Assembly (NCBI GenBank): GCA_028554795.2
Contig: CM068826.1
Span: forward strand, 102,612,346-102,676,345
Origin: Sinohyriopsis cumingii
Taxonomy: Eukaryota > Mollusca > Bivalvia > Unionida > Unionidae
Direction: 5' to 3'
Length of the DNA: 64,000 nt
Positions within the stretch are counted from its first letter, which is position 1. Every line of letters begins with the position of its first letter. Under the pieces are notes generated by a model, which had not been told where the DNA came from, did no database searches, and saw only the letters and a program-made list of their open reading frames with translations. This document shows, one piece after another, positions 5,956 through 47,674 of this stretch. A program made the position numbers and the translations under genes.

Positions 5956-6009
5956 CCATACTAAGGCATATTTGAAATTGTCTACAAGAGTTCTGTGCAC
6001 TACATGACA
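5956..6009 (-). CDS. DRG2: DRG2 coding exon 13 (TGS domain)
   Basis: 18 codons: [18 protein letters not shown]. Acceptor TTTGACAG, donor TGG/GTAAG. FKYALVW is a DRG-family signature; the usual following segment, ending in IQIVKK, is not in 1-5955. Confidence 0.93.
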
Positions 6010-9000
6010 CTGTCAAAAAAAAGAGAACAAAATGAGTATTATTCTAAACTTTAACACAATAATACAAAGCAATTCATTTTCTCCTCGAATATTCTGTCAT
6101 AAAAAACCTAAACAGCATTACATAGGCCTCAATATTCTAACATATAGCAAAACATGTTATAACTGTTGTATGAAAATATTTGAGCAAGAGACATCATGCT
6201 GTTGGAATATTTTAAGACCCACCCATCTGAATGACCTGTCATAATTGTAACAATTTTGCTCCTTTTACAATTTGATGCTGTTACCACATATTACATTTTC
6301 TTTTGAACTGACTGTTACCATAATACTTAAAGTTGGATCCAACAAATCTGACCATGATCTGCCATCACATTATGCAACACTATGTTGTTTGCATTTGGAC
6401 CTGACTCTGAAGGAATTACATATGGTACTGATAAATACAATCTTCTCGAGCCACAGAATTTTCTCTGTGAGTAAATATAGCCTATCTGCAAATGTTTTAA
6501 GGAAAATTACTGACTTGAACAATGAAAACTGTGTGTAACATTGCATTATATACTAATAGTGTGCAAATTACTGTTTTTATTATTCATTAAAACTGAGACT
6601 TCAAGCACTGTGCATAGCACTTACAAGGTGTTAAAATATCACACTAACACTTACCACATGTTCCACTGTACAGCCTTTACGTAAAATTAGTCCACCTTCA
6701 AAATCGGGTCTCTCTGGAAGTACAAATTGAAATGCGTTATTTTAGTGATTTAAGTTTATACATAAAAAGGTTAAGTTTACACAAACAAGGATTCCACGGA
6801 ATGCTGAATCTAAACGTAAGGACTAAGATAAATGTCATGTCTATGACTTTTGATAGACAAAACTGTTGCAATTTGAAAAATGAGACCCATAGGTCTCAAA
6901 GGGTTACATATAGGGTTTAGTAAATTTGAGCATTGCCCCCCCCACCACCCCCGTTGAAAAATGGGGGTCAATATGGTCATATTTGTGGTTTCTCAATAGG
7001 TCATGAAAAAATAAGCAAAAGTGGGTTGTTTACAAGATAAAATCTGTTACTAAAATTATAACAAAGAACATTGTAAACATAATGTCCTTGACTGAGACCA
7101 AGATAATGATCCTAATATTTAACCCACACTCTTATAGAAATATTAGCTATGTATTATTTATTTACCAAAATGAAATACTGCTGAGGTAGACAATGACCTC
7201 AATTTTGGACAAGATCAAGTCCAAAACACAATTAATATAACACATAAAGAAGAAAAAAATAACAAATACAAATTAAATATACATAACAGTATAAACATAC
7301 TGTTGATAAAAATGTGTGCAATATTATGTTGTGCCTTATTGTTCTTATGGATTTCAAAAACATGGATAAAATGAAATCTGCCTTCAGAAGGAATCACACT
7401 TTTTAACAAAAGCTATATTCAAATGAAGGATTGATTTGAATAAGTATTAGATTTAATTTTCATACACTAGTATTTTTATCATTCTTACTTTCATTTTCAG
7501 AACCACTAGTATTTCAATACCATATGATTTTTTCTCTTCTCTCTATCCTTACTCATCTCACACCGATTTAAGGCATGAAGTGGAAATTACGGCCAGCAGA
7601 TAGCTTATCGATATGTTTACAATGAAACAATATAAAATGCTTTATAATTTTTTTCCAATATGTCAAAATAAAACAAAACATGTAAAAGCTAACATTTTAT
7701 TACTGGATTACAGTACTGATTTATCAAATACTAGTAGTTTTGTTAATCTCTATCAAAGATACACAGTAAGAAAATAGGTGGGGATGGATCCTTTTCATAT
7801 GTGGCTAATTTATTGCTGGTCTTTAAATTTGTGGTCCTGGGCAAAAACGAAATCCACGAGATTGATCCCCAATAAATTTTCTGATACCACAGAAATTTCT
7901 GGCTGACATGAAAGTCTCTCAGGAGATTAATAGCAAAATAAATCATGTACACAAGAAACTTCGGTCAATCTGAAAAAAGATTCTACAAAGGCACCACAAA
8001 ATTTTAAATAAATTTCATGTCTGTCTCTCTTACAGATACACACACAAACCCACACCAGCAGAGAAAAACAGTGATGCAATATTTAAAAATGGAGTAAATT
8101 ATAAGGGGTTTGATCTTAGAAATCACCAGTGGAATCAGTACAGGTCTCATCTCAATAACAAGCAATTTATCCAAGGCAGGGTTCACTGTGCACCCTACCT
8201 TTTGTAAACAAGAACAGCTCAACTTCAAAACTGCTGACAAGATCTGTCATCACATCACTACGGTAACCACTTTCCTACAATATATGACACTGACCATGAT
8301 ACATATGATTGCGGAGAATAACAATCAGTGCTTTTTAGCTCTATACCAACTGCATCAGCAAGGAGCTTGGATGTCAAATTGTCAGGGACATCTCACACAG
8401 AAGGTAGCCCATACTGACACTGTAACACAGCTTAGAGACAAATTGCTTTATTCCAGGCATGATCAAGTGCTTGCATTTTTCAAACTCTGTTGCCCACCAT
8501 TTCAATAGGTTGAAGAGTGAATGTAGCCATTTGTTAAAGAAAACTGAACCATTCGTTCAACCAAATTCAGCATTATTCAGCTACCATCTCTCTTCAACCA
8601 ACAGAGCCTGAAAAATGTAACCACTTGATTGTGCCTTGATTTACCTTGATAAGGAAAAAGGCAGAGTAAGCACAGTATAAACAAAGCTGAACCATACCCT
8701 AACTGCAGTTCAGCTTGTGACACATGACATGATTCCCTGGTCAACAATAGCAACACTGACTGTACAAATGCAAAATGGGTAATTTCTAAACTTCTTTCGA
8801 ATGAAACACACAATTCATGAAAATTTGCCCCAAATAGTTATTTTCAGAATTATTGTTTCTGCACATATTAAAAAATTGTGTGTAAAAGTTTAAATTATAG
8901 TGGAATTGTGACAAATGCACATCCTAATACAACCCTGCTATCTGTTAATACAAACAAATCAAAATTCTAACATTCTCTCTCCCCCTCTCTTCTGCTCGAT

Positions 9001-12000
9001 ATTTACATGGAATACAGAAGCCGACAAATTACATGCAATGGAATGGTCATTAAATCTTTCAAACACCATAAAGCAAGTATATGAAGCTGCTACCGCCATA
9101 ACAAAATGAAGCCAACTGATTAAATTCTGAAAAACTATTCACTCTGCATAGGGATATTTTACAAACTTTGCAGGTATTTTTCAACTCTGAACGTAACAAT
9201 CTACTAATGCTAATAAATGAAGAGAACTCTTTCCACAGCAATATGAATAAGATAACCTAATAAAATACATTCCATCTTTCAAATCTGAATTCCTAAGTTA
9301 GCTTAAAATATGTTCAAGGCTTATCAGCAATCAATCAAATTAATAAGAATACTTATGGCTTGGAAGATAGGAGAACATAACTCCAGAGTGCTACTTATGG
9401 TCCTTTGTTACTGCAATAAACAGATTCTTCTAAATAATCATTCAGTTATTAAAAATTCCTTTCTTTTTACATGTTACAATCAAATTTGTATTAACATTTA
9501 TAAACATCATTTGTGGTATTGCTGTGGTGATTTTCTATTAAAAGCATTTCCTATTATTTAGCATCACAGGAACGATATCGAAGTGAGAAAATTACTGTTG
9601 AAACTAATCAGTTACCTAAATGAGTTACCTCCCTTGAAACATAAATTGGACTTACAAAGACTGTTGAATACATTCTTTGTTATTATTTTAGTAAAGACCA
9701 TACACTTTATTACTAGTAATAAAACTATATTTGGTAGAAGAGAGCAGATAAAATGTCATAGAAATGGGAAGAAAAAAAGTGCACAAAGTTTCAGACATGG
9801 AAGAAAGCTTGTAAAAATTACACAAGATCTCAAAGCTATTGTTGTGCATGAAAAAGAGAAACCAAAATTCACTTTCAAATAAATGAAAACAAAAATAAAA
9901 AAATTTAAACATATTTATGTTACCCGAAACATAAGTGGACCCAAATAATGCCACTATATTATACTTTACCTCCCCTTTTCTTTGTGTACACTCTCACTAG
10001 AGAGAGATAGTCCCACATAACATCTAACAGGTACTCAAGATTTAACTTCATATTACAGCTGAAAGAACAAAAAAGAAATTATTTTTACAGTATTTTGACA
10101 GCTTCATAAAACTGTTTCTACATCTGGCACAGACAGGTAAGAATTAAAAAAAAAACCAATACGGTTTCAGAAAATAAACACACAGCTTGAAAAATGGTTC
10201 TTGCAAAAACCTGTTACTTGTTTACAAGAAGCTCACTTACACTTCTGTAAAGTACAAAGTTTATGGGTTTAATTTGATTTTATTAAACAAAACCATAATG
10301 TCCATAAAAAGTGAGACAGTAAAAGGTCAGCTCTAAATTTCACCAAATGCTTGAAGAAAAGAAATGCCGTTTGTTAAGTCATAAAGCATTTTGCTATTTA
10401 GATGACACATTCTTAAATTAAATTGGTAATGTAGTGCTTTTCTAGAACCTATTTCCAAAAGGAATCAGCACATTCTCTCAAAATCAAACAAATATCTTGA
10501 AACAAGAATTACACAGAATGTTACATCTCACCTTCTCTGCTAGTGAACTTGACACTTGATGTTTGTAAATACTAGCCCTCAAAATGAATTGGCGTATTAA
10601 GTTTTATCTGGGCATGTTTTGACCTCAAATTCTGTAGTATTTGGCCACGGCGATCTTTTGACAAAAAAATAAAAATAGGATTCTTCCTTACCCCAAGTTC
10701 AAGCCATCCAAAACGTTTTGTCCTGGTATGTGACATAGCACAAATGATACTGTATTAAACCATTTTTATTCTGTTGGGGCCCTGGGTGGAACAAGTACTC
10801 ACCTTTACTGACCACTGCCATCTCATCTCTGTCCTCATGGTTTTGAGTCTCAGACTCGGTTTATGTGGGCATGTGAAAAAGCTTGCCAGTAACTTCCCTT
10901 AGAATGGTGGATCTTCCTGAGATTTTTCCAGGTTCTTCCTCCAACAGTTATACTAGCCACCATATGTAGCCTATCATGTACTGAAAAATTGCGTTAAGCC
11001 CACAACATCATATTCTAACTCTAACTGCAAGGCATCCACAAAGTTTTGCAACCATATTCTTCCATAAACTAAGTGCAATCAGTCCACAGATATTTTTAAG
11101 TGTAGATGGTGGATAACTCAAGTTCTTGTGCAGAAACAATTTTTTAAAATTTCAGTCACTATGACACTGAACTTTCAGCTTTTATCTCCAAAATCAACAG
11201 GGTTCTTCTTTACCTAAGTGCAAGTCATCCACAAAGTTTGGTAACTGCTGCTGGAGGACATCTTGAGTTATATTACAAATGAAATTGGCAACAGACAGAA
11301 GAACAACAATAACATAATATACTCTACCTTAAGGCAGCCATATAAAAAGCCACACCCATGTCTCCCTATGATTTGCAGGCAAAATAAAAATGTATAGATC
11401 TGAATAAAAATTTTACCTGACCACAACTGAGTGGGGTTGTCGAGCTAATCTGTCTACTTCTTCCATTGAAATCTGGTCAATTTTGTTGTACACCTGAAAT
11501 AGAAGGTAAATATGTACAGAATAAAATGTTGATAAAGATGTAAATGAAATATATAGGTAATGATGCAAGACATTTTTATAACTACTTGCTGTGGCAATAT
11601 GGGCAATTTCATCTCTTCTCTTCTCATCCATTCTACTAATATTTGGCAACAAAATATCAACATGCAATTATAGTAAATAAAAAAATTAATTCTTCTTCAA
11701 GTGCAATAATTTCTTATTTCAAGCGAAAACTTCATGGAATAGAGTACACAAATAGAACAAATTGAGTTGCATAACTGAAACTTGAAAATATTTTAATGTT
11801 ACCATTTCTAAACAAGTATGTAAAATTGTATAGAACTATTCTATCAAATTTATGAACCATAATTTCTTAAGAATCTGGTAATGACATCTGGCACAACTTT
11901 TAACACCAGTCTTGCACAACAAGACGCTCTATGAATCAAGCTGTCTTGAAACCTCTAGATCATTCTTCATCTGGTAAATTCAGTGGCACCGAGTGGCCAA

Positions 12001-15000
12001 GTGGTCTAAAGTGCTCTCCATTACGGATCACTGCCATCTCACCTCTGTCTGCATGGGTTTGAGTCTAGGATTCGGCCAATGTGGGTATATGAGAAAGTTT
12101 GCCAGTAGCTTCTCGTGAGTCGGTGGTTCTTCCCGAGGTTTTCCTGGGTTCTTCCTCCACCATTAATACTTGCCACCATGCATAGCCTATCATGTGCTGA
12201 AAAATGTTGTTAAACCCCACAACAACAACATATGGTAAATTCCTTTGACAGGAGTTTCTAAAAAGCACGATACCCAGGATCTAAATATTAACAAATTTAC
12301 ATTTTTATTAGAGCAACAGTTTTCATTTGTCTTCCAATTCATTCAATGCTATGTTGTTATTATCAATCACTTTTTTCTTGGCAAGTCATTTTATTTTCAC
12401 AAATAGGAGTTGTGACTGAAATTAATTTTGCCATATGTTCTACAAGCTAACATAATTAGCCATGGTGGCTCCATGGTTAGCATGACAGACTTGTAGATTT
12501 TAAATGTACCATTGGATCTGCTAGGGTGTTTCCCTGAGCAACACACTTTAACTGCTTCAGAATCACAAAATTTTCATTTACAGCTGTACACATAAAACTC
12601 CAAACAAACACAAACTAATGTGACATTTTGCTAAAACCATTTCAAGCATCTTCATTTCAACTGGCAATTAACAAAGTTATTTTAAAATTAAAAGATGCCA
12701 GTTTCCTTCTGATGTCAAGTTTTCATATGTATTTGAATATATCATGTCCATCTTAAATGTCTTATATATGGTACCTATAGGACCAAAATATGCTATTTTC
12801 TAACAGTATTAAGTCACAATTTAGGTGCATCACCTGGTAATGCAATAGGGAAAGCTGGCAGGTAATTCCTCCTTAAATGATACTAATCAATGAACAAATG
12901 TGGAATGGATAAGTTTATTTTAAGCTGTGTTAGATTACGATATCCAATCAAACATAAAGTATCTGAATGACAAAACCAGATTGAATATTTTCAAAAAATT
13001 GCACAATTTATAAAACAATGGCTGATATTTCATCCTGAGGTTTAAATTACAAAGCTCAGTTTGTTTTTTATTTATAAGCAGTGTCAATGGGATTTTGGAT
13101 CAACACTTATATTTGATTCAGACTCCATTATGGATCACTGCCATCTCACCTCTATCTGTGTGGGTTGAGTCTCAGATTCGGCCAATGTGGGTATGTGAGA
13201 AAGTTTGCCAGTAGCATATCGTGGGTCAGTAGTCCTTTCCGGGATTTTCCTAGGTTCTTCCTCCACCATTAATAATGGCCGCCATGTATAGCCTATTGTG
13301 TGCTGAAAAATGGCGTTAAATCCCACAACAATAACAAATCTTTTTTCAATCATTCATTTAATTAACCGCATTATATCCTATCACCTTTATTGCTTGGAGC
13401 CAATTTTAGGAGACATAACAATAGACTTACCTGTGCAATGTTCTTACATGTCTGCACATTTATTCCTTAGCCCCAGTCAACCAGTCAAAAGGGACAAAGC
13501 TCTTACCTGTCTGCATATATATTTTAATGTTCTAATCAACTCTGAAGTTTTAAGTTTTTAACATACTAGTTTAAGTTGAAACTTAATATAAGCAAACCTG
13601 CCTCTTAAGACATCGAAAATTGATGCTTTTCAGGTTCCTTTCAGCTAGTTTACTGTAAAAGTTAAAATTCTATTATGAAACTGTCTTGTACGGTTAATTC
13701 TTTGTCTTCAGAAAGATTTGACTGTACCAGTATGTCACCATTGAAAGTGTGTGCACTGCCAATAAATAGTAACAACCAACTTCACATGCTCATTGCCTTT
13801 GATTAACAGAAAAGTAGAGTAGAATAAACAATCATTAAGCTTATAGTTTTTGAGAGAGAGAGAAACTTACATAGAGACAATTCATATACACCCTACTCCC
13901 AAGTAATACATCCACAAACTCATCTGTTGTGCAGTCATCACGAAACAAAACCTCAGCATTGAAAATTTATGACCAAAGTTAAGGAACAAAATACACACAT
14001 ATATTGTCAATCACAAAATATAAATGAGCACATATTTGCACATTTAGCAAACAAAGTTATTTTCAAAATAAAGATTATGCACATGAATTGGTCAAGTAGG
14101 GGAACTGAAAACTGTGAGCATTCCACCAGCCATATATGTCTTCTTCTCATGGCAACAGAGGGATGGCCAGAAACCATTCAAGCATAGCGTCAACAGCGTC
14201 ATCCACATGGGCTTTTACATTGATGGTACAGACAGGTTCGTCACAGGCCACAGAAAACAAATCCAACAGACACGACATTGATGGTCCAGTGGTGTTTGTT
14301 TAAGTTTCAGTTTTTCTTTTTGTGGTCAGTGGTTCCTCATGCTTGTCAGCTGATGCAACTATGATGCATTCTGCTCTAAACAATTCTTTGGATATGGTCA
14401 CAAGTAATTCTTTGCTGAATAGGCGATGTTTGAATCATGGATCGGAGATGGTGGCCAAGACAAGCTTCTTGTTGCTGGCAATGTCAGCAAAGCAAGTGTT
14501 CAGTGATGTCAACATGTCACAGCGCATTGTCTGAATACCATGACTCACTTCATGCTCTCGAGCCAGCAACATTCGAAGCATTTTCAGCATAGTTCAACAG
14601 CCACATGAGGCCTCATTGGCTGGATGGCTGCTGTGATTGGAATGAGTGCATGAATGGTATTGATAATTTGTTGTGTGCAGACAATCAGCGGTAGTTTACA
14701 GCAAGTGTGTTAAAAAGTATTTACTTTTAAGAATATATTGTCTTTCAATTAACACCCAAATCAAATATTTGTTTTTTAATTTCCTCTATTTAATTCTGAT
14801 TTCAAATTCAAAGCTACGTCAAGATGAATGTTATGACTGAATTCACATTTTGGAAATTTGTTTACATCGGCACCGATTATTTCTTCCGATACGAATTATA
14901 TCAATTGTTCTAATAATCGGCCCGATTATGAGTATTGCCGATTAATCGGTACAGCTTTACTAAAACTAGATTAGAATAGAAAACTTGACAGCATGTATCC

Positions 15001-18000
15001 AATCACAGCAGAAATCATACAGCAATATTATACTAGTTTTTGATATCATACACCAGACCAGCACATATTTAAATGCAGCTATAACAAAGGGAGGTGAAGA
15101 ATGCATTACCAAGGCAACCTAAGTGTGTGAGAATGGCAATGTGATCATACTGAGAAAAAAAAGAACTCTGTCATAAAAAAATTAAAGAAAAGTTGGAAAT
15201 TTATAGATGAAGTATATTTCCTGTTGAAAAGAACCTTTCTCCAACTTACTTTAAGGTGGAAAACGTTCAGAATACTTATATGTGGATTGTGAAGCCCTTT
15301 ATTTCTGCCTATAGTGTGATACTTAACATGAGCAAATGTAGTAACTAAAGTATTCAGTCTAAGAAGAATAACACTGCAAAAATGGTAACTGATTGTCATT
15401 CTGAAAATTGACTGAGATACTGAATTTAGCATCTACATATTTTTACATAGTGAATAGAATGTTGTAACCTATTTATGTGTGCCTCATTTATTACTCAAAA
15501 ATTACCAAAGGAATGAAATTGTGGCAAACACAGGTATAACTTATATTGATATAGGTTATCTGTGGTTTGATAATCCATTTATGTTGGATTAAGGAAATCA
15601 CATTTAATTTCTTTTATATCTACACAGAGTAGTTTGCAAACATGCAATACTTTTGCACAAACAGCATAAAACAATTAATGAACAAATTTATATAAGGATT
15701 TATAGAAGTTTTTAATAAAATAGGATCATTAACTCTGTCAAATTCTAAAAGAAAAAGGGAAAATTATCTGACCAGGTCTTCTTGCTATTCAACTGAATAT
15801 GATAAGACATTTAAATTTGACCCATAAAATCGTTCAAAGGCTTATTAAGCATAAATAACATTTTGATGTTGCCGACATAGTTCTGTCCATCAAAGGATAC
15901 TATAGTCGTGAAGGATCAGCTGCACCATCTTCTCACTTGTCTTTGTTAATGTTACAGTTGAGTTAAAAGAGATCCCACCTCCCTTCTTTGGCTGAAAAAG
16001 AAAACAATGAAACATTGGTAGCACCAGGAAAGAGCTTAACACCCTTCCGTCAACCTATTTTTCCAGGACTTGGTTCAATTCCCAGAGAGTGATGGTCAAA
16101 TGCAAAGTGAAATGACTATCCCATACTATAAACCATATGTCTGGCAAAGATCAAATGTAAGTGGAAGTGTTCTATAAAGTATTGGCCTGATTAAAGCTTC
16201 ATTTTTGCTTAGTTAACAATAAACAGAGAAAATTTAAGGTAATAAATTTTAACAAGTCTACTGTTTATATTTTATTTGTATAACTCAAGTTTTATACACA
16301 TTAAGTGTTGAGTGATGGTATGTACGGCCAGAATAATAAGGTTGATAAATGACATTAGCATTGTCTCGCCAGTCTGAGATGACAGATTCATGATAGCAGA
16401 AACCATACACTGATGGTCCAGGCAGCTGGAATGGTCAGCACTCAGTATAATGTGCAGTGAATGATGTATAACTTATGATCTGAAATGATCATCATTGTAA
16501 GAACATTTCTAGGTATCTTCACTGAGGGTGGGGATGGCATCTCGATGTCCCCAATAAAACTTGTAAACAATTCCAAATTTGGATGAATGCTTAATGCTTC
16601 GTATTCAGAATATTTAGTGCATGCCTTTTTGTGGCCCTTCAAATGCCAATTCAAGCCATTGGACCAAAATGTGAGGAAGAACATTTTGTGCGGGCAAGGC
16701 AGTTTTCATACTTGTCCTCTAAAACTTCAAAGCATCTGCACTTCCTGCACTTGACTGACATCGCTGTAAAGAATGAGAGATGAAAAAAGAACAAACAAGT
16801 ACTTACAACAAAAATAGAAATGGTTCAAATAGTTGGACTCTCATTACTATGATAAACCAAACTTTAGCAGTTCAATGCAATTACAATGGTGAAAATCTAA
16901 GTGTTTCCATTCAATATCACATGGACCAGTACTGCATAAACATGAATAAATTCACCTGGAATAATGAATATACACCAGGTATATCAACTTCTGACTTAAA
17001 ATATCAGTGAAAACAAATTTCAGATGGTCAACGTATTCTCCAAAGGCATTCTTTGCAGTTGTAATTTCAGTCTAAAATGGTATACATCAGGAATATTGGT
17101 GGCAGAGTAATGGGAACAGAGGAGTTAACTTGTTACAGTTACGTCTCTTGAACTATATGATACAGATAGAAAGATGTTATTTTTAATCTTTCATTGAAGT
17201 CTGGATTCGGAGGCAGCTGAGAATAATTTCCTAATGATAATATTATCTGACAGCTAATGTATCTGACAGAGAAAATCCATCGAGTTAAAAAATTATAATC
17301 AGGTGCAAAATCTTTTATGAAAACCATAACACAACTTTTCTATGTAACCTTGAATCCAAGGTCATAGGGGCAAATGAGCATGTTGTGGGATGAATTGTCT
17401 TCGGTTGACAACAATTCAAGCCAAATACGACGGGAATCTATTAAGGGGGTTAGAAATATATACTAATGAAAATTTTTAAACTAAATCATGTATAGCCCCA
17501 GAGAGTTGTTTGTCAATGAGGTTTCAAGTACTTCCAAAAACTTTCAAGTAGTATTGTTTCTAAAGGAAAGTGGACTTTTTGTATGTTACTTTGCTTAACA
17601 TGACATCAATGGATGCAAACAATGAAATAAATAACACAAATGTCCAAGTAACTAATTAGTGCACCATTAGATCAAAGTGATGCTATTAGCTGCCAATCAC
17701 ATTTATCATTTAAGACCACAGTCTGTTGTTGTTGTTTTGGGTTTAATGCCATTTTTCAGCATATTGATAGGCTATACATGGTGGCTCATATAACTGGTGG
17801 AGGAAGAAGCCATGAAAACCTTGGTAAGAACCACCAACCCATGGGAAGCAACTGGGAAGCTTCCTCATATATCCACACTGACTGAGCCAAAGACACCAAT
17901 CCACATAGATGTGCAATGGCAGTGATCAGTAAAGGTGAGCACTTTAGGCCACTTGGCCACCCTGGGCACCCATAACCACTGGTGGGACAGTGAAAATGTT

Positions 18001-21000
18001 GTCTGAATCAGAAGATACTGTAGTCTGTAAAGGTTATTATACAGTTTGAAATGGCCAAAAATGGACATAATAACTGAATTCCTATTTTAGGGGTGGTTGC
18101 AAGGTGAGGTTCTGCAAACTGTTATATCTATACATAAAACTAAGAAAAATAAGCTCTAAACTTTCCATTTACTCTAGCTAATATGTAACTCGATCTGAAA
18201 ATCTTTTGGCATGTCCTTTGTTTATAATTTTGTATCTGTAATCTGGTAGAAAAGTACCAGGAATTTCTTTTTTTTGAGGATGACTGTTTGCAATCTTCTC
18301 AAAATGCTGAATTTGTTATTGGGTATCTAATGAATATTGGTCATTAATTAAATGAAACCCACTAATATTCATAGTCAGGTGGAAATGTCAATTTATATGT
18401 GGAAATAACTTCACAAAATGGTACTAATTCCATTCAACACATGATTTATGCTACCTTGAATAGTAAAATATTGATTGTAATTTATTTCAGACTGAAAAAA
18501 GGCTTGTATCTGATACCTTAAAATATATGTGTGGCTTGGTTTTGTTGAGACGTATTCCTACACTTTCTAACTCACTTGTAAGTAGCTCTCTGAAAAGAAA
18601 GAAGAAAATTTAGGGAACTTTTTTAAACTTATTTATTCACCGTTTGACTCTGGAAAAGTCTTTCATTTTGTTTAGTAAGACAAACATCTGCTATGAGATG
18701 GGAAATAGAAATCAACAAAGGGGTTTACATGTAAAAGACAAATTACTCACACCAACAGAAGCACAATTGTAGTAGCTGATAATATAAAGACCATGGATTA
18801 ACACTGTGACATTTGGAGTTAAGTGCCTTGAATAGAGCTGCACCATGAGAACTGACAAAGGTTGGTCTCGACTGGATTCAAAACTGTTAACCACTGGTTT
18901 TGAGTCTAAGCTAACAAGTAAGTCATCATGGAGGCAGAAAATATTACTGGTCAAGTCTCAGCAAACAAGTAAGTCATCATGGAGGCAGGAAATATTACTG
19001 GTTATGTCTAAACTAAGAAGAAAGTCATCATGGAGGCAGAAAATATTACTGGTCAAGTCTAAGCTAACAAGTAAGTCATCATGGAGGCAGGAAATATTAC
19101 TGGTTAAGTCTAAGCTAACAAGTAAGTCGTTATGGAGGCAGGAAATATTACTGGTTATGTCTAAGCTAACAAGTAAGTCATCATGGAGGCAGGAAATATT
19201 ACTGGTCAAGTCCAAGCTAACAAGTAAGTCATCATGGAGGCAGGAAATATTACTGGTTAAGTCTAAGCTAACAAGTAAGTAATCATGGAGGCAGGAAATA
19301 TTACTGGTTAAGTCTAAGCTAACAAGTAAGTCATCATGGAGGCAGGAAATATTACTGGTTAAGTCTAAGCTAACAAGTAAGTCGTCATGGAGGCAGGAAA
19401 TATTACTGGTTATGTCTAAACTAAGAAGAAAGTCATCACGGAGGCAGAAAATATTACTGGTCAAGTCTAAGCTAACAAGTAATTCATCATGGAGGCAGGA
19501 AATATTACTGGTTAAGTCTAAGCTAACAAGTAAGTCGTCATGGAGGCAGGAAATATTACTGGTTATGTCTAAACTAAGAAGAAAGTCATCATGGAGGCAG
19601 AAAATATTACTGGTCAAGTCCAAGCTAACAAGTAAGTCATCATGGAGGCAGGAAATATTACTGGTTAAGTCTAAGCTAACAAGTAAGTCATCATGGAGGC
19701 AGAAAATATTACTGGTTAAGTCTAAGCTAACAAGTAAGTCATCATGGAGGCAGGAAATATTACTGGTTATGTCTAAACTAAGAAGTAAGTAATCATGGAG
19801 GCAGGAAATATTACTGGTTAAGTCTAAGCTAACAAATAAGTCATCATGGAGGCAGGAAATATTACTGGTTAAGTCTTAGCTAACAAATAAGTCATCATGG
19901 AGGCAGGAAATATTACTGGTTAAGTCTAAGCTAATAAGTAAGTCATCATGGAGGCAGGAAATATTACTGGTTAAGTCTAAGCTAACAAATAAGTCATCAT
20001 GGAGGCAGGAAATATTACTGGTCATGTCTAAACTAAGAAGTAAGTCATTGAGGCAGGAAATATTACTGGTTAAATCTAAGCTAACAAATAAGTCATCATG
20101 GAGGCAGGAAATATTACTGGTTAAGTCTAAGCTAATAAGTAAGTCATCATGGAGGCAGGAAATATTACTGGTTAAGTCTAAGCTAACAAATAAGTCATCA
20201 TGGAGGCAGGAAATATTACTGGTCATGTCTAAACTAAGAAGAAAGTCATTGAGGCAGGAAATATTACTGGTTAAATCTAAGCTAACAAATAAGTCATCAT
20301 GGAGGCAGGAAATATTACTGGTTAAGTCTAAGCTAACAAGTAAGTCATCATGGAGGCAGGAAATATTACTGGTTAAGTCTAAGCTAACAAATAAGTCATC
20401 ATGGAGGCAGGAAATATTACTGGTCATGTCTAAACTAAGAAGTAAGTCATTGAGGCAGGAAATATTACTGGTTAAGTCTAAGCTAACAAGTAAGTCATCA
20501 TGGAGGCAGGAAATATTACTGGTTAAGTCTAAGCTAACAAGTAAGTCATCATGGAGGCAGGAAATATTACTGGTTAAGTCTAAGCTAACAAGTAAGTCAT
20601 CATGGAGGCAGGAAATATTACTGGTTAAGTCTAAGCTAACAAGTAAGTCATCATGGAGGCAGGAAATATTACTGCAAATATATTATTCAAGAAGATGCCT
20701 CTACAAAGTTTCATTTATGTAGGATCAAAACAAAGTTTTATTAGATGCAATTGGGTTAAAAACAGAGGATATAACAAATGGATCACTCAACATATACAGG
20801 TTACCTGAGCATGAAAACACAGATTTACTCTAGAGTACAATAGATGTGGCTATGATCCCCGGGGTCACCCTTTGGAGCAAGCAGGTGTGAGTATAGATTC
20901 TAAAATAATACTTTAAAATGTGTGAAAAACATGGGAATTTGTTTTGGCAAGCCATTTATTTAATTCTATTCGTTCAAATAGCTTTTTTTTAAATTTTTTG

Positions 21001-24000
21001 GGCTCAATCTATTGATTTCAAATACTTTGCTAATATCCAGGAAAATATGTGCAAAGTGTGTTGTGTACATGAAGTTAAATAAAATATATAACAGAACAAG
21101 TTATATTTGATTTTGGAGGAACATTCTAATTAATATTTTATGCAAATTTCCATGTGTCAGGCATCTTACTTTTGTATTTCACCCTTTGTCGCATCCAGCA
21201 TCATCAGCACCAAATCAGCTGTCCTTGCAACGGCAATAACTTGCCTTCCTCTACCCTTTCCTGTATTAGAATAAATTATATTGATCATAGATCAAGATGA
21301 ATAGTCAAATCTACCTTAAAGGTCACCTCTATTAACAAACAACACATCTTTAAGAACATCTTCCTGTTAACAGCCCTTAATGAGTGTGTTTGTGATTTGG
21401 ATTTTTAACATAGCTTTAACGATTTTTCAGTCATATTGCTATGATGTCAACAGTGTGGCAGTTTATAGTGATGTCTAGCACTGAGGTAGCATCATGTTCC
21501 ACTGAGTCACATTATCCTGACACCAGGCCAACCAGTCCTAACCTCTTAATGCTTAGCACCTAGCATAGCAGTTGTCAGTACCATTTTTATAAGACTTTGG
21601 TATGACCACTTATTGACCTATATAATTGGCTGGTGCATCTGTGTCAGGTCAAAGGGGAAGAAAATACCTTGATCATATATTTTCTTCATGTGGTCAATAA
21701 TCTTTGATAGAAATTATAAAGAAGAGAAAATGAAATCTCTAATAGAAACTGTAAAGAAGAGAAAATGAAATCTCTAATAGAAACTGTAAAGAAGGGAAGA
21801 CGAAATCTCCAACAAAATCATTACTGCATTTATTTCCAAAGTTGCACAAAGATTGGACAACAATGGAGCCAACTGGCACCCTACATTTCAGAATGGAGGC
21901 AAATCGTTATCTCATAGCAGGCCAATCTCATAATAATAACATTTACACTGCCTATTTTACAGGTTATTACATGAACAACCAAATAGATAACAATCTTACT
22001 TATGCCTCCAACCATACTCTAAATCAGGTCAACAATTTTATACCTTGCCAACATTACTGTCATCAGACTTCATCAAGATTCGGCTTGAGAATGTTATGTT
22101 TCTCTTCTTTTTATTTGATATGGCATCCGATTCTTGTTGGAAGCTTAATTTTCTGTTTTGACTCTTTGTCTCGGTTTTTGTGGGTTTTACCAGCTTGGTC
22201 ACTAGAGTCAATCATACATGTGGCAATTTATATAGCTTGCACAATTTAGTGTGACACTGGAGTAAAGAAATTTTTTATCCGATGTTCCACATCTACTTCT
22301 TAGAGGAATTTTACTGTATATATAAATGACAAATGGTGATATATATGTCATTTCATGGCACTAAGCCTAACTTTTCCATTCCTGGAAAGAACACTGAAAT
22401 AATCTATAATTATACTTGTGAGACTGGAACTACTAACAAATCAAGGTACATGCTTTAAACACAGCAATATTCTAGCAATGTTTTAGCTGAATATGGCCAA
22501 TGATGTTGACTTTCAATAACTTCAACACATCACCATCTCACTCTGCTGTTGCGGCCATCACTGCCATAAAGATCTACATCGGGTACAGGTGAGAGAAAAA
22601 AAGGCCACATTCAGCAGCCTCATGGACAAATTTAAGGCCCTTACCTTGTGCTGCACCTTCAATGATTCCTGGCAAATCAAGGAGCTGAATGTTGGCACCA
22701 TTATGCTGAAAATGGATATAAAGTAAATTAGAGATATGTTTAGCCCATGGGTTTCACATAAATGCTAAAATGATTTAGAAAACACAATTACAATTCAGTA
22801 ATCTGCTTCTGCTGATACACATACTAAGTATTCATTATTTTCATGTGCATCTGTTCTTGTGGTTTTCCAAAATAAAATAATTTTGCAGGTACAGTGGAAC
22901 CCCGCTATAACGCGATGATCGGGGTCCATAAAATCGGATCGCGTTAAAAGCGGGGTCGCGTTAATGCGGGGTTTTACAATATTTAACTTTTTTCCGAGAA
23001 CATATACGTGTATACATGTACAATGATCAAAAGTCGGCTTATCATCAGATGAATATTAACTGGAATGCATTAATTAAGATATATTCAAAATAATCGATGG
23101 CTAATATATTTATAGGTTATTACTGTGCATTAAAAACATTTACTAATTTTTATTTGTTTGAACGATAATACAGATTGACCGATAATACCAGACTATCGCT
23201 ATATCATGAAAAGTGTATCAACACCGTATGCTACCATGCCGTCGTGGCATGCAGTTCATCCATAATGGATGTAATTTCATTGAAAATCGTACAGATTTAA
23301 AATATTCAATAATTTTGTAATAGTCTGAATTTGTCGTGTAAAATATAGGATGAACAAAATATTGAAACCATTTACTTGCCGTCTGATATCGTACGGTCAT
23401 TGCATGCAGCTATTCCCGGGTCTACATACGGTGTCTGTACAAATTTCATACCGCTAAAATTTTATCATATGCGACAACTGCAAGAATAATTAACAATCAA
23501 CGCATGATTTCAGCGTGCAAATAACTTTTATTTCAGATTTTGTGAACATCAAAAGAAACATGTGAAAACTGCTAAATTAATCGTTGCGCAAAGTGCAAAG
23601 TCAGTGTGGTTCCAAATTTAAATTTCATCATTTCTTGAAAAATATATCCAATGACGTTTGCTTCTTTGCCACGAACTGTTGGGTTCTAGCAAAGTCAAGA
23701 ATGTTTCTTAATTGAAGGACTTTGACGCTGTCAACATCTTGTGTTTCCAGCCACCTTAAACTTGCTTCTAAATGTACTACTGCTTCAGACACTTTTGGTG
23801 GGGGAGTTGGGGTGCCATCGTCATCGTTATCATTATCGTCACTGGTTTCAGGTTCTGATTGTGCAGCTTCATTCTTCCTGCTGACATTTGTAACAATTTC
23901 GTCATCTGATATGTGTTCGTATATAGGGCAGATGTCATCTACTGAATACCAGTTAAGGATATCATGATGACTGTGCTCGTATTTTTTGAGTGCTTCTTCT

Positions 24001-27000
24001 GCTAAACGTAAGTCGTCTTCAGTGAATCCTGTAAATTCAAGCTCATCGTTACTATCATTTTGTGTCGAGGGCGTAAAAGCTGGCCCAAGACCCTTTATCC
24101 AGCATCGTTCAATGCAGCGTGCAGTGATAGCATCCCAGGTTTTACCTCCAAGGTGACATACTTCTTTTAAGTTGAGTAATGCCAATGATGTGTCGACGGA
24201 TGCGTTATTATCTGCTACCATTCCCTTTATCATTTCACGGCGATAATTTTGTTTAAGTACGGAAATTATGCCTTGGTCAAGTGGCTGGATTTCTGACGTA
24301 GTGTTTTTCGGGAGGTACGAAACTTTGATCTTGCCATCACTGCTGACAAGATTTTCCGCTGGGGGGTGGGCAGGGCAATTATCCAGCAGGAGGAGAGCTT
24401 TTTCCTCCAGCTTGAGTTTTCATAAATAAGCCCGAACATCTGGAACGAATGTTTTGTGAAACCAGTCGTCAAATATGGAGCTATTCATCCAAGCATTCTT
24501 GCTGTTAGTGTACTGAAATGGAAGTGCCTTCATATTTACATGATGAAAACATCTGGGAGCTTTCGATTTTCCAATCATCAGAGGTCTGACTTTGTGGCTG
24601 CCAGACTTGTTAACACAAAATAAGAGAGTCACTCTGTCCTTCCTCTTCTTGAAACCTTCTCGTTTGTGACTGTCAGTCTTGGTTGCAAGGGTGCAATCGG
24701 GTAACATTTTATAACATAAACCAGTCTCATCGCAGTTGTAAACTTGGTCGGCTGTGTAGCAACCGTCCTCCAGCAACTTTTTAAGCCCAATCGGGTAGGA
24801 ATTGGCAGCTTCTTTGTCAGCGGAGCGGATTTCCCCAGACACAAGAACTTGGCTGATAGCGTGCCTTTTCTTGAATCTGTCTAGCCAGCCATTACTCGCC
24901 TTAAATTTGGAATCATCTCCATTGATACGGCAATCAAATTTCTCTGCTTGGGCTTTCAGAATTGGGCCAGAAATTGGAACACCTTCTGAGCGAGCTTGTA
25001 CAAACCATTGGTACAAAGCTGAATCTAGGACATTGTCATTAGCTAACTTAACCCTTTTACGCTGTAAACCAGTTTCCTCTTCAAGAATGTTGGGTAGACT
25101 ATGGAGCTTTCCTTCATCTGTTTTCCACCCTCGCAAAGTGGACTCGCCGATTCCTAGATCTCTGGCAAGCTGAGTTTGTTGTTTGCCCTTCTTTAGTTGA
25201 TCTAGGGCATACAGTTTCTCTTTAGCAGGAAACGACTTGCGTTTTTGAACTTGCTTTTCCATAACAGTAAAATATTTTTTTATATAAGCAAACAACGTAC
25301 ACAGATAAAGCTCGATAACTAAGTAATGAAGGCCTGCAATGGTTACAAATCACTTTTTATATAAAACAAAATTAAGCTGAACGGATGTACAATTTCATAC
25401 CCTTTTAATTTACAGATAATAAAGTGGATATTATTTACTTTCAACTGTTTGTTGTTTGATCACACCGCCAAGCACAGCATACATGTTGGCGGCTTTCGTC
25501 CTTTGATGTTTATTAAATTGTGCGACTCTTGTATCAACCACAGCTTTGTCTGCTGCTTGGCTGTGATTGCAGTTAAATAAGAAGCCCATGTCGGCTATTG
25601 TTTGAGCAACGACTGTATACAGAATTCATGGAAGACAATCACAAAGACGATTTACTGGCTTTACTCATGGATCCGTAATAAGTAACACTTCCGATAATGT
25701 TTACTTCGGCTTAACAATTCAAAAACCTAATGAAACCAGTTTTCTCTTCTAGAGTAGAATACGGAGCTTCACCACAACCTGTTCAAATTGATAAATTTCA
25801 GAAGCCAAGCGTTGTACACACTATTTCTCGTACGTTATATATATCGTATTATTTTAGAATTCATACACGATCACTTCTCCAAAATCACTTAAAGAACCTG
25901 GATAAATTGTTAAGTTCCGATCGTTTATTATTAAAAGTCATACGCGAATTCTTCCACCAAATTATAATAAACGTTTTACACACTATTTCTCGTACGTTAA
26001 ACAAATATTTTCACAGTCCGATAAAAATACACGTAAATGAATTTCAAATTTCAGGAACCATGCCACGATCATATTATTTTAAAAGTCACAACTAATCTCA
26101 TGCCCAAAATTAAGTTAATTTCTTGTTTTGTTTTTTTTACTTTTCTCCAAATTTTTTTTCTCCATGTGTGAATGAATATACAAAATTTCGGGAGCCATGC
26201 TACGACCGCGTTATATCCGAATTCGCGTTATGGCGGGGCGCATTATAGTGGGGTTCCACTGTACTTAAATGCATGGATATGCATACACTCCTATTATGAG
26301 ACAAGTATGAGTGATGTTAACACTCTTCAGGGTTTCCTTAGAAGTGATATATCTGTCAAACTCAACTTAGAGCAAACTGCAGATTTTTGGTCCAATCTAA
26401 AATCTTTAACTTTCAATCGTAATTAAACAAATTACATCTGACAGAATCTTTCTAGATTAAAAAGTTATCTTACTGGTGTCTGAATGGAAAGGTTGGATGA
26501 GCTGTCTGTAGGTCAGTAATGTATCACTTTTATGATGACTATCAAATTCAAACAAAATATACATGCAGTAAATAAACTGATCAAATAAATTATGTAGTCA
26601 TTATTGTTGACCGTCCTAACTTTGTGCCATCCTTGGTTCATGTGCAATGTTTCTCATGACCTCACATGCTTGTTTTAAGATCCTGATGTCATTAAATGGG
26701 TCAATGCCTTTCGTCAACAGCGACAGTAAAGTAAGTACTAATTGAGAAATTGTTCAACAAATAAAAGAAAGCACAATAGAAATGTCCAATTTAACTAATG
26801 CCATTTTTGCCTCAAGTCTGTGGCCCTGGAGCCAGTGTTAGCTGTTCAAGTCAGATCCACTGTTCACATTTTGGTTTACTGGACCTATTTATTAACATGA
26901 AACCCAAGACAGATATTTTTGTGACAGCAAAGGCAATGCAAAACCTTGGTTACCTTACATGCACTTCTTGTACCATGTTAGAAAAAATGAATGAAATGGA

Positions 27001-30000
27001 CAATGCAGAATTAAATGTTTCACTGAAATATTGAAAGATAAGGGGAAAAAATATTTCTTATTTAATAACATTGAGAAAAAAATCATCATATGTGTAAATA
27101 TGGTAATTTTATATAAAAATTTAAAGGAAATAAAAAAGTATCTTTTTTCTTTGACACTTTTCTCATGAATGTTTTAATGCAGTTTATATGAGTGTGAAAG
27201 AAATTAAATACATTACAAATGCAGGTATTTAATAATATAGGACATTATAAACAATCAAAAGAAAACTGAAAGAGCTTTCAAAACTATGGCTGAGGAAAAA
27301 ATATCTTCTTGCCATGCAATCAAAGCACATTCGCAACTCAAAATTGTGTACTTTCATAAAATTTGTACAAGTCAAATTTTAGTTCAATATCTTCATTGTA
27401 GGCCTCTGAATAACCCACTTGTACAAACTGCTGGTTTAATGAAGAAAACAATAACAATTAATGAAACAATGTATTAGTGATGTCACAAAATAAAGACTAG
27501 CACTGGAGTCCTAAGACCTTAGTCCCAAGCAAGTTTTTATACTAAAGGTGTTCTGGCATAAAATTACTGTTTGTTTTATTACTACTTACTGACACCTGGA
27601 ATACAGGTGAGAGAGGTTTTCTACTTTTGTCTTATTACTACTTACTTCTATGACACCTGGGATACAGGTGAGGGTGGTGAATTCATATGAAGCTGTCTCA
27701 CTGTGAGTATCTGTCAAGGTATTGAGCAAAGTGGACTACAATAAAAAAGGTGAAGAAAACATGAACAGATGACAACTAACTTTTAAAGATGTTCTGATCG
27801 TTTTTTTTAAATTCTAACTCAAGCTTTTTAATAAGCTCAACCTTTAAATTACCAAAGTCTGACAATTTTTCAGATAACCCCAATCCCAACTTTTCCAACC
27901 TTGCACCAGGCAGGCTCAAATGATTAATCAAGATCATTTATGATAAAATCCTGTATTCTGAACACATGCACTCTCCCCACCCACCCCGGGGGGAGAGGGG
28001 CTTGGGGATGTAGAATAATCACAATGTGCCTCCTGCATGTTGTCAGAGGCAGCAAATAAAGACAACCTTTCTGCTCTAGGAAATATTTTACTTTATTTTG
28101 CCATAATCTTTGGTTTCTATGTCTTTCGGGATACCTAACTTACTTGGTACTCTAACCAGAATTCTGCTGATGTGGCATTAAACAATACAAATATATAAAT
28201 ACATAAATACTTATAAATACTGCATAACAGGAAATTACTCAATCTGAGACATCAAATGCTAAAACAGACTTACGATTGAAAAGAACATTTCTGGATCCCA
28301 AACATTCCATTTTATATTTGTGTATATGTATTATGAAAATTAATTGTTAGGCTACACATATCCTCTTTAATGAATGATCAGTTTCTTTTGCAACACAGCG
28401 ACAATATATATTCTTTCGATACTTGAAACAACAACATAAAATGTCAGCTAAACATAATTCACGTGTCTTTATTAATACAATAAATTAAATACAGTTAATT
28501 CTTCACCACATGCATTGGAAAACTTTAGAAAACTTCATTTTCAGAGAGTATGGGTCATGAGTAAGAGTGGAAACTATGTTCTTAACCATTGACAAGCCAA
28601 TGTTCTTGATTACTCTGTTAAAGATGCAGAAAATTTGCCATGAATAAGATGAAAATGGCATTTTCAATCTATCTTATGCTAAATGTTTCCATTGTTTTCG
28701 AATCATGCAAAAGTTATGCAGCATATGATTTGGCATACTCCAAATGTCCTTAAAGTCCTGTTAAATATCAGCTACTGTGACCTCCTTTTGCTTCTTATGA
28801 GCAGTACCATCAATGATGAATATACAAATCAAGTTTCATGACTACACATGCAACAGTGTCAGAGAAAATGAGCTACATGTCAATGCAAACATTACATGCT
28901 TGCACCTACACTGGCCACTCTGGTGGGCTAAATAATAGCACATCTGCCTCGTTTGTGGGAGGTTACACATTTAAACCCTGGCCAAGTCATACCAAAGACA
29001 TAAAAATGGTACCAGCAGTTGCCTCACTTGGTGCTCTGCATTAAGAGGTTAGTTTTACGACTGGTCAGCCCTGTGTCAGGATAATGTGACTGGGTAGGAT
29101 ATGATGCTACATGTCTGTGGCGTGATGCCCCAGTGCTAGACATTTCTATAAACTGCCACACTGCAGATATTATAGCGATATGATGGGAAAAATTGTTAAA
29201 GTTATGGTAAAAATCCAAATCACACACACACCCCCCAACACTGGAGGGTGAAAGGGAAGTAATGGGTAAGAGTTTCTTCCCCTTGTCCATAGAAATGAAA
29301 ATGTTTTTGTGGGATAGCTAGATTCTAGCGATAGTGAAGCTTATATTCCTAATGTCATTGTGATTGGTGAACATATTCAAAATAGAAATGTGTTGTTTAG
29401 TCTAGCTAACAGCTTTCTTTGCCAACTGGCTTACCTTTCCTACTTTATGATGAATTTGATTATAATGCAGCTTTGGATATAACACGCTACCACTCCTGTG
29501 ACCAAAATTATAGAAACGTGTTTAATCTTGTCGAACATGCATAGCCAAATATCTTACCTTTCCCACGGATGGAAAACCTATTAGAGCCACCCTTGCATCA
29601 CCAGATTTCATCACATCAAAGCCTTCTCCCTAAAACAAACAGATACAAAACAATCAAATTCAAGAATGGCAAACAAACAATTTTCTATACAAAAGTTCTA
29701 TTCCATTTTCATCTGTAAAAAAGAAAAAAGATTAAAATAATATGCATATATTAAAATGGATACAATTAATTTCAAAGTCATGAAAGATGCATAATGTTTT
29801 GTATCATATACACACAAAAACATACATTAAAATGGGATACAATTACCTTTAAAGCCTTGAAAGATAGACAATGTTTTTATTACTGAAAGCAACTAAATAT
29901 TTCTCAAATTTGAAAAAGTCATTTTTACCAGTAATTTTGAATAAAATAAAGCGTACAGCTCCTGCTGATTTTAACAACATAATTCCAAGTATAACACAGT

Positions 30001-33000
30001 ACCACTATGGACCACGTAACCAAAATTATACAAATTTAAAGTTAAAAAATAAATTAATACAGAGCTTTTAACATCGATTAGCTGAATAATTTACGTGAGA
30101 AACATTGTTCCTTAACTAGTCCAACTAAACTCTTTTCATAAACATGGCTTCATATTTGACTGAATACTGTGGATAATGCATCCCAATAATATTAAAATGT
30201 TTTAGATTTTGAAGATGACTGGTCTGTTACAGGCTGGAAAGGTGAATCTTGCTAATTTTTAAAGCAAAGGACCATCATTAGTTCAGGTTTTTCTTTCCTT
30301 CCATACAAATTAGTATACTGTTTGCAATTCTTATACACAGTAATATGTTTTTATGTATACAATAAAAAAAACTTCTCTGTACCAAAATTTTGTAGACAAA
30401 ATGTTAGTTTAACTCTAAACCTGGGGTTTTAATTCAAATGAGTTCAAACCAGCAAGGATCCAATTTACCTCTCTTCTAAAAAGATTGAAAAAAACTGCAA
30501 ATAAGGAAAATAAACTTACAACACTCCCTCATTAAAATGTTGTAGCTGTGGGCCATAACTGCTGACATAGCAATATGTACCAAACAATTTTGCAACAGGT
30601 ATGAATGATGTGAACCACTGTATAGCCAGAGTCATCAAAATAATGTTTTAGAATGAAAAGAAAAATACAAAGGGCATTTGAAAAGTTATGAAAATTCTGA
30701 GACAACTTTTTTGTTTCCTGTAACCTGTCAAACACTTTAATGCATATTGACAGACAAAATAACATTCTATAAATAGATCTTCAGCTGCAAGTGCAACCTG
30801 CCATCATGTGAAATAACATTGGTAAATCACAGTGACATCAAAATGCTGAAGATGGAAATACAATTCAGCTACTGAGTAAAGAACATACTGTAAAATCCAG
30901 GTGCTCTTAGAATACTCTCCGATTGATACCAAGGCCAATCTGGATCAAGTTTTACAGATTTATATCCAACAAAAGGTATCGTTATTTTAAAGATGGAGGC
31001 AAATACATGGAAGATGACCTGCATTCCAGTACATTATAGTCCGCAAATGATGAGAATAAAGAAGCAGCTGTCGAGAAGGCAACTGATAATGAGGCATGAT
31101 ACACTGTCAAAAGTATTTCTATTACCATGGGAATTAATTTGTCAGCTGTTTTTGATATACTGAAGAATCATTTCACCATCTGGAATGTTTGTGCATGGTG
31201 GATCTGGCATTAGCAGACTCATGATAAAAAAACAGACTTGGGTTGGATCATCAAACAACTACTTGCCAAATATAAAAAAAGGTCATATGGAATGTTTGAA
31301 AGACAATATGGATTTACTTTTCTGAACCAAATTCAAGAGAAAATAGGTAAATATGGATTGGAAAAAAGAAGCATAGATTAAAAATCACTTGAAGTCAGAC
31401 TGTCAAGATTGTTTTATACACTGTATTTCTTGATGCAAAAGGCCCAGTCATCCTGGTACATGTGTCTTACTACACCACCAAGTGTTACAAAAAGTTGTGG
31501 AACACTACCGAACAATCATTCCACATAACAGTACCCAAATTATCCATCTAATCCATGACAGTGCACTGGCACATAAATCCACCACTTTGACAGACTTTAT
31601 GAAGGGCCACAAGACCCCAACTCTGCCACATCTCCATACAGCCCTGATTTACATCCAAGTGATTTTTGGCTGAATCATGTTATCACAGATTCATGGAGGG
31701 GCAGATGATCCAAAGCTGTGATATGTCTGGAAGTGGTTTTCCAGTGTGTAAACATAACAAAGAAATGAATACAAAATGGTATTTAATAACTGTATAATCA
31801 GAATGAGAAAGTGTGAAGAGGTATATGGGGCATACTTTGAGGAGATGCATTGATATACTGTTCACTGATAAAGGGACTTTACTGTACAGCTCACTAATAT
31901 TCAGAACTTTTTAAATATCCATCATTAAAAAAACAACTTAATTTTCTTCACTTGCCACCGATATTGTCAGAGCAGGACAAATACAACAGTTTAATATTTA
32001 GTCATGGGATTATGGATTACTTTTAGCTTTCATTTATTATACCAACAAACTTCAAATGAAGACACCACAGTGGTGGCTTAAGTGGTTGTGGGTTTGAACC
32101 CCAACCAAGTCATACCAAAGACATAAAATGGTACTAACAGAGTAGCTCTGCCTCTGCTCCAGTGTTAGACATCACTAAAAACTGCCACACTGCAGACATC
32201 ATAGCGATATTACTGAAAAATTGTTAAAGCTATGTTAAAATCTAAATCACACACAAACACACACTCAAATGTAGACAAATACTGACAATTCTGAGCTGAG
32301 ATCATAACATTTTACCTTGGCTCCCGATTTCCCTTGAGGCTCTAGTAGCTGCTGACGATACCTTGCTAGTTTGGCCTTCAGTAAGCCAAGATGGTATTCT
32401 GTGGCTATAAAAATAAAACGTAATGACAAAATAAAGCCAAAACTTACAAAATATTCCTCTTCTCAGATCATCCAATCTATTATGAAAATTAAAACCCTAA
32501 TATCCTCTTCTGTTCAGCATGACAATGACATTTCCAACAATGATGAGTGCATTAGATACATAATAATGTGCATTCTTGTAAATTCTGTGCTCTCGTGTTT
32601 GTTATTTGTTTTTGTCTTGAAACTGCCTCAGACAAAGACAACAATATTTTTTCTCTTAACAAAAGAAAGAACCAGGAACATACAGAAGCGTATTTTTTAC
32701 ATGAATAATCACCATTTACACTTTATCCCAGTTTCTTTGGGCATACAGTAGCTATACTTAGCAAAATGGAAAGTTTGGCTAAAGGTAGCATAACTCTGTT
32801 ATATTATGCAAATTAAGTCCAGAGTATTGTTGTATGAAAAGCATGTTACATGCCTGTCCTTTATTTAATGGTCATCTAACTTAAAATTTCTGAGTACAAA
32901 CCATTGTTTCTTCTTTCAGTCAGTCACCTTGGCCTTTGACCTTTAGATTCTAAAATCAATGCATGCCATACATACAGACTGGTTGAGGTATGTGATGTTA

Positions 33001-47145: not shown

Positions 47146-47674
47146 AATCTACCTGAGAAAGCATGTGGATTGACCAGTAATCGGAGATACTGTACTTGGA
47201 TTAATACATACAAGCAGAATGATGTTTCTTTGCCATGGAGTGTTGTGGGGACCATCTCTTGTTTGGAAGGTCATTAAGATAAACAGAATATTACCACTGG
47301 ACTTGATCAAACTGCATAGAGTGACTCAGTCAAGTCTGCACACGAGGCCAATAAACAGTGTGTCTGACAACTGCAAACTTTCAAGTCCACACTTTATTAA
47401 AAACATTTCATTTTCTGACAATATAAGAAATTTTGTGTCTACACGAACAACAATATTCAACATCAGAGGCTTGTCCACTCTTTCACGTAATAAGTCATAT
47501 TTTGAAAACCATTGGGTAAGGTTTGTACGTATCAGACTTCTGTCAGGAGGTAAAGGTACCCAGGATGCTGCGACCTACAGAAGAAGAACTGCATTGACAT
47601 ACATCATGGCTGGTTGTATATTCATGGTGGGAGCTTCTTACGCTGGCGTGCCACTATACAGAATGTTCTGTCAG
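47146..47674 (+). CDS. COX11: COX11 first coding exon with 5' leader
   Basis: A good acceptor (TTTCTTTCACAG) ends at 47145, so the exon probably begins at 47146 with a 73-base leader before the ATG at 47219. That implies an upstream non-coding exon that I could not locate. Codes for 152 residues ending YAGVPLYRMFCQ; donor CAG/GTCAGT. Confidence 0.85.

Follow-up and report, generated by a model that had tools for sequence, protein, structure and literature searches.

We identified, in the 64-kb window analyzed here (the whole 64,000-nucleotide stretch of Sinohyriopsis cumingii DNA), an intron of the DRG2 gene that, with a probability of roughly 0.8 on the evidence of its sequence, is a minor (U12-type) intron removed as GT-AT. 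Judging from its donor and branch site, this intron, the eighth of our gene model, almost certainly belongs to the minor class; the protein encoded across the exon 8/9 junction makes it likely that the intron ends in AT. The coordinates of the gene, the intron, and its putative splicing signals are collected in Table 1, and positions throughout are those of the window.

Table 1. Positions in the window of the DRG2 gene model, the exons flanking intron 8, and the predicted signals of this intron
Feature	Positions	Strand	Description
DRG2 gene model	5956..38105	-	13 coding exons; tblastn and exon assembly
DRG2 exon 8	15901..15991	-	30 residues and the first base of the K codon; TTTTTCAG directly before
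DRG2 intron 8	13969..15900	-	1,932 nt; phase 1; predicted GT-AT ends; U12 type by sequence
DRG2 exon 9	13871..13968	-	Rest of the K codon and 32 residues; GTAAGT directly after
U12-type donor GTATCCTTT	15892..15900	-	9/9 match to RTATCCTTT
U12-type branch site TTCCTTAAC	13978..13986	-	9/9 match to TTCCTTRAC; putative branch A at 13979
Terminal dinucleotide AT	13969..13970	-	Context GGTCAT; AG or AC expected

The DRG2 gene model and its surroundings

The DRG2 reading frame is open across the 13 exons and encodes 336 residues, ending in ...KYALVW on the minus strand. Exons 1 to 4 were placed by tblastn with a human DRG2 query, and a tblastn search of the 64-kb window did not find a coding part after ...KYALVW. 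The 231 residues encoded from exon 5 onward matched yeast Rbg2 with an E value of 3.5e-81 (query residues 2 to 231) and yeast Rbg1 with an E value of 1.2e-68 among the PDB matches, and the same part of the protein contains MMR_HSR1, MMR_HSR1_Xtn, and TGS domains, all three above the Pfam cutoff. NCBIfam recovered just general GTPase models for the DRG2 protein, below their cutoffs. The similarity of its encoded protein points to a DRG-family GTPase that is nearer to Rbg2 than to Rbg1, which we identify as DRG2; the PDB matches, the Pfam domains, and the tblastn exon model bear out both the name and the exon numbering used in the earlier note. A search of genome contigs for relatives recovered three archaeal homologs among 19 matched stretches, and these were used for the K column discussed below and for nothing else; a search of viral contigs returned three stretches with a pattern match, none of them a relative.

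Several other features lie within or near this gene. One minisatellite (1790 to 4330; 54.6 copies of a 47-bp unit) lies past exon 13 and probably falls in the intron that follows, and a second (18903 to 20674; 34.9 copies of a 51-bp unit) is located inside intron 6. Intron 4 contains a transposase on the minus strand (23628 to 25349) with matches to the Pfam families HTH_Tnp_Tc5, CENP-B_N, HTH_Tnp_1, and DDE_1, encoded by two adjoining open stretches that share one frame and are split by a stop; we take it to be Pogo/Tigger-like. A repeated element spotted by eye occurs in introns 9 and 10 on the minus strand (13326 to 13250, 12220 to 12143, and 11003 to 10931) and has a layout of GTGGG..TTAAC, then TTTTTCAG(C/T)AC, then GGAGGAAGAACC; this is possibly a SINE. 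On the plus strand, opposite DRG2, an open frame at 47174 to 47707 contains ...YIMAGCIFMVGASYAGVPLYRMFCQ... and presumably represents an exon of COX11; a Pfam search of this frame returned no matches.

U12-type signals of intron 8

We read the junctions of intron 8 again in the sequence, and every letter and coordinate given for them in the earlier note proved correct. On the minus strand, exon 8 ends with CACGACTATA at 15901 and the intron starts with GTATCCTTTG at 15900; the intron ends with CTTTGGTCAT at 13969, in a longer 3′ context that ends TTCCTTAACTTTGGTCAT, and exon 9 starts with AAATTTTCAA at 13968. The putative branch A is the second A of TTAAC, and a second count agreed with the 10 bases previously reported between it and the exon: 10 intron bases follow the A, and exon 9 begins with the 11th base. 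Among the 12 introns of the model, intron 8 is alone in matching both U12 consensus sequences at all nine positions, which upholds the original assignment of these signals to the U12 type: scored against the same consensus sequences, the donors of the other 11 introns match at 3 to 6 of nine positions and their branch sites at 5 to 7 of nine at best. The remaining 11 introns all have GT-AG ends, to which intron 8 is the exception. Minor introns are expected to lack a distinct polypyrimidine tract, and the pyrimidine fraction is a nonseparating measure in this gene, with 0.71 over 17 nt for intron 8 and 0.59 to 0.94 for the other 11 introns. An Rfam search of the 64-kb window recovered no families. 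The donor of the neighboring intron 7, GTATCAGATACA at 18516 on the minus strand, deviates from GTAAGT and matches the U12 donor at six of nine positions; at its other end, however, intron 7 has an unexceptional TTTTTCAG, and no candidate branch site in it matches at more than six of nine positions.

Taken singly, U12 motifs are unremarkable in 64 kb, and what is rare is the pair placed at a junction defined by homology. RTATCCTTT was found twice in the window against an expectation of 1.83, with at least two occurrences in 59 of 100 shuffles, and TTCCTTAAC was found three times against an expectation of 0.65, with at least three occurrences in 5 of 100 shuffles. We also noted ATATCCTTT at 39532 on the minus strand, which lies upstream of DRG2 exon 1, and discarded it as being at chance level. 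For the donor and branch matches jointly at the place where they occur in intron 8, a simple second-order Markov estimate with six allowed branch positions, a number of our choosing, gives a probability of ∼7e-9 per GT intron, or ∼9e-8 over 12 introns, and at the per-intron value we rejected chance as the source of these signals.

The exon 8/9 junction and competing readings

To define the junction from the protein, we combined every exon 8 end between 15961 and 15871 with every exon 9 start between 14028 and 13899, retained the 1,631 donor/acceptor pairs that were open and in frame, and scored the resulting peptides against yeast Rbg2 and Rbg1. The GT-AT pair (15901/13968) had a score of 254 and ranked second; the first-ranked pair, with a score of 260, is a one-base shift that replaces K with R, as in yeast, and has TA-TA ends, which to our knowledge fit no known splice signal. 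For the U12 donor alone, the scanned range offered 24 acceptors that left the frame open, and the score of 254 for GT-AT was followed by 229 for GT-AA, with 113 for the only GT-AG. Joining at GT-AT brings together TATA + AAATTTTC and yields HDYKIFNAEV; because the bases on either side of the two splice sites differ, this junction would align without ambiguity. The lysine occupies a column that is ungapped in all five aligned relatives, and the Pfam Xtn score is 143.0 bits with this residue and 132.7 without it, a loss of 10.3 bits. Counting against the reading, the identity of the column is not kept beyond eukaryotes, with R in the two yeast proteins and G in the three archaeal ones. Moving the acceptor further upstream would add a stop codon, since TAA precedes the ATT (I) codon in the genomic reading frame of exon 9. 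The junction scan, the Pfam scores, and the ungapped column sustain the earlier claim that protein conservation fixes the GT-AT junction, which appears to be the best supported exon 8/9 junction, with GT-AA as a weak rival.

The strongest competing explanation, though an improbable one, is that position 13969 carries an assembly error or a minority allele and that intron 8 is an ordinary GT-AG U12-type intron ending in TCAG. One substitution would suffice to restore the commonest ending of minor introns next to a donor and branch site that are otherwise consensus, and a survey, in the excerpt available, warns that noncanonical ends are hard to separate from annotation errors (PMC10639083). Against this stands the coding sequence of DRG2; because it is open over 13 exons, the assembly is not generally poor in this region.

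We consider it quite unlikely that splicing relies on this U12 donor and branch site but ends the intron three bases later (CATAAA/TTTTC, the slash marking the splice), which would make intron 8 a GT-AA intron with an exon from 13965 and a DRG2 protein reading HDY-IFNAEV, one K fewer. This end is in frame and lies 13 nt after the branch A, inside the usual range, but it deletes a residue at the ungapped lysine column, costs the 10.3 Pfam bits given above together with 25 raw score points, and departs from the finding, in excerpts of a published study, that the partner of a first G is a final G or T (PMC4176328). Branch distance counts against GT-AT here: excerpts of the literature give an optimum of 11 to 13 nt between branch and 3′ splice site for minor introns (PMC3584512), and the 10 bases of GT-AT (11 to the exon) fall within this optimum at its short edge, depending on how the bases are counted, compared with 13 (14) for GT-AA.

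Removal of intron 8 by the major spliceosome through other canonical ends, or alternative splicing of exon 9, is very unlikely: in-frame pairs do exist, such as an AT-AC pair whose exon starts at 13933, a GTGCAG donor joined to 13951, and the U12 donor joined to 13923, but the best canonical-ended pair ranks 415th of 1,631 with a score of 149, removes a net 11 residues from a conserved part of the protein, and offers no explanation for the two perfect U12 motifs found at the junction.

The in-frame GT-AA and GT-AG alternatives at 13965 and 13923 are both missing from the earlier note; the GT-AG alternative entails a net loss of 15 residues, with its exon starting 56 nt beyond the branch A. The same note held that the next AG (exon from 13951) would shift the frame, and this acceptor is indeed absent from the open in-frame acceptors of the U12 donor; an intron 8 ending there was rejected as out of frame with that donor. 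A shifted AT-AA reading (exon 8 ...AGT/ATCC, exon from 13966) was discarded with its donor two bases off the U12 motif. Also rejected was a plus-strand intron with AT-AC ends, which are GT-AT read in reverse complement: it would start with ATGACCAAAG, which is no U12 donor, and the reading frame is on the minus strand. Finally, A-to-I editing as a rescue was set aside by reasoning only, the last base being T.

Probable GT-AT removal and its relation to known minor introns

Minor introns depend on U11, U12, U4atac, and U6atac for their removal. Under the favored GT-AT reading, and extrapolating from what is established for minor splicing, the U11 snRNP and later U6atac would read the donor GTATCCTTT, while U12 snRNA would read the branch site TTCCTTAAC. 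The second step would then be set at CAT/AAATTTTC by the short and constant spacing to the branch A and not by an AG or AC, giving HDY-K-IFNAEV. This ending likely arose when an ancestral minor intron with GT-AG ends underwent a single G-to-T change at its final position, turning TCAG into TCAT; the change may have been tolerated because the branch site weighs heavily in minor splicing and because a first G can be joined to a final T.

Nonstandard ends of minor introns were described at the outset as known but rare, and excerpts of several papers agree in treating GT-AT as a natural and experimentally accepted ending: human G-type minor introns include GT-AT (PMC8280824), an intron with a 5′ G can end in G or T, G being preferred (PMC4176328, where the edited cases are GT-AA and AT-AG), and GU-AU is among the known rare minor termini (PMC8199999). 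The introns reported in these excerpts have the same terminal pair as DRG2 intron 8 and belong to the same class. Other terminal combinations are likewise said, in an excerpt, to be usable in minor splicing, though often at lower efficiency (PMC3584512), and in the part of the main text of PMC7072748 available to us we found no mention of GT-AT. Our literature search found no paper on DRG2 as a minor-intron gene; supplementary gene lists were outside this search and may list DRG2. A mutational study of U12 dinucleotides was reportedly carried out by Dietrich et al. in 2005.

Intron 8 resembles GT-AG U12-type introns in its G1 donor (R)TATCCTTT, its branch site TTCCTTAAC, and its short branch-to-3′ distance, and differs from them in its last base, which is T instead of G. 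The same terminal pair is found in GT-AT splices of Drosophila melanogaster, of which 14 are annotated and 11 have RNA-seq junction support; in the excerpt available these are tabulated apart from the U12-marked rows, and a similar alternative splice accompanies all 14 (PMC4528330), whereas for DRG2 intron 8 none of the canonical alternatives within the scanned range preserves the conserved protein. The same excerpt indicates that unstranded RNA-seq tends to call GT-AT splices as AT-AC, as in 8 of 10 cases (PMC4528330). CENATAC-dependent AT-AN minor introns share with intron 8 a variable last base, but as described in the excerpt they start with A, while intron 8 has a G in first position and would be classed as G-type; CENATAC depletion affected 24% of G-type minor introns (PMC8280824).

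DRG2 intron 8 appears to be a well-supported addition to the already known, rare GT-AT minor subtype, and we claim no novelty for DRG2. Because none of the canonical acceptors scanned would preserve the DRG2 protein, we lean toward the view that it is an obligate, constitutive GT-AT minor intron, in which the first G and last U must carry nearly all splicing. It would add a clean, protein-anchored case to the small set of minor introns with a nonstandard last base, and gene predictors restricted to GT-AG, GC-AG, and AT-AC introns would miscall the DRG2 exon 8/9 junction. As a G-first, U-last intron with no usable canonical neighbor, it would be a good substrate for studies of how the minor spliceosome chooses the 3′ end. 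If GT-AT is fixed in this lineage, relatives with TCAG would provide a before-and-after test of last-base choice.
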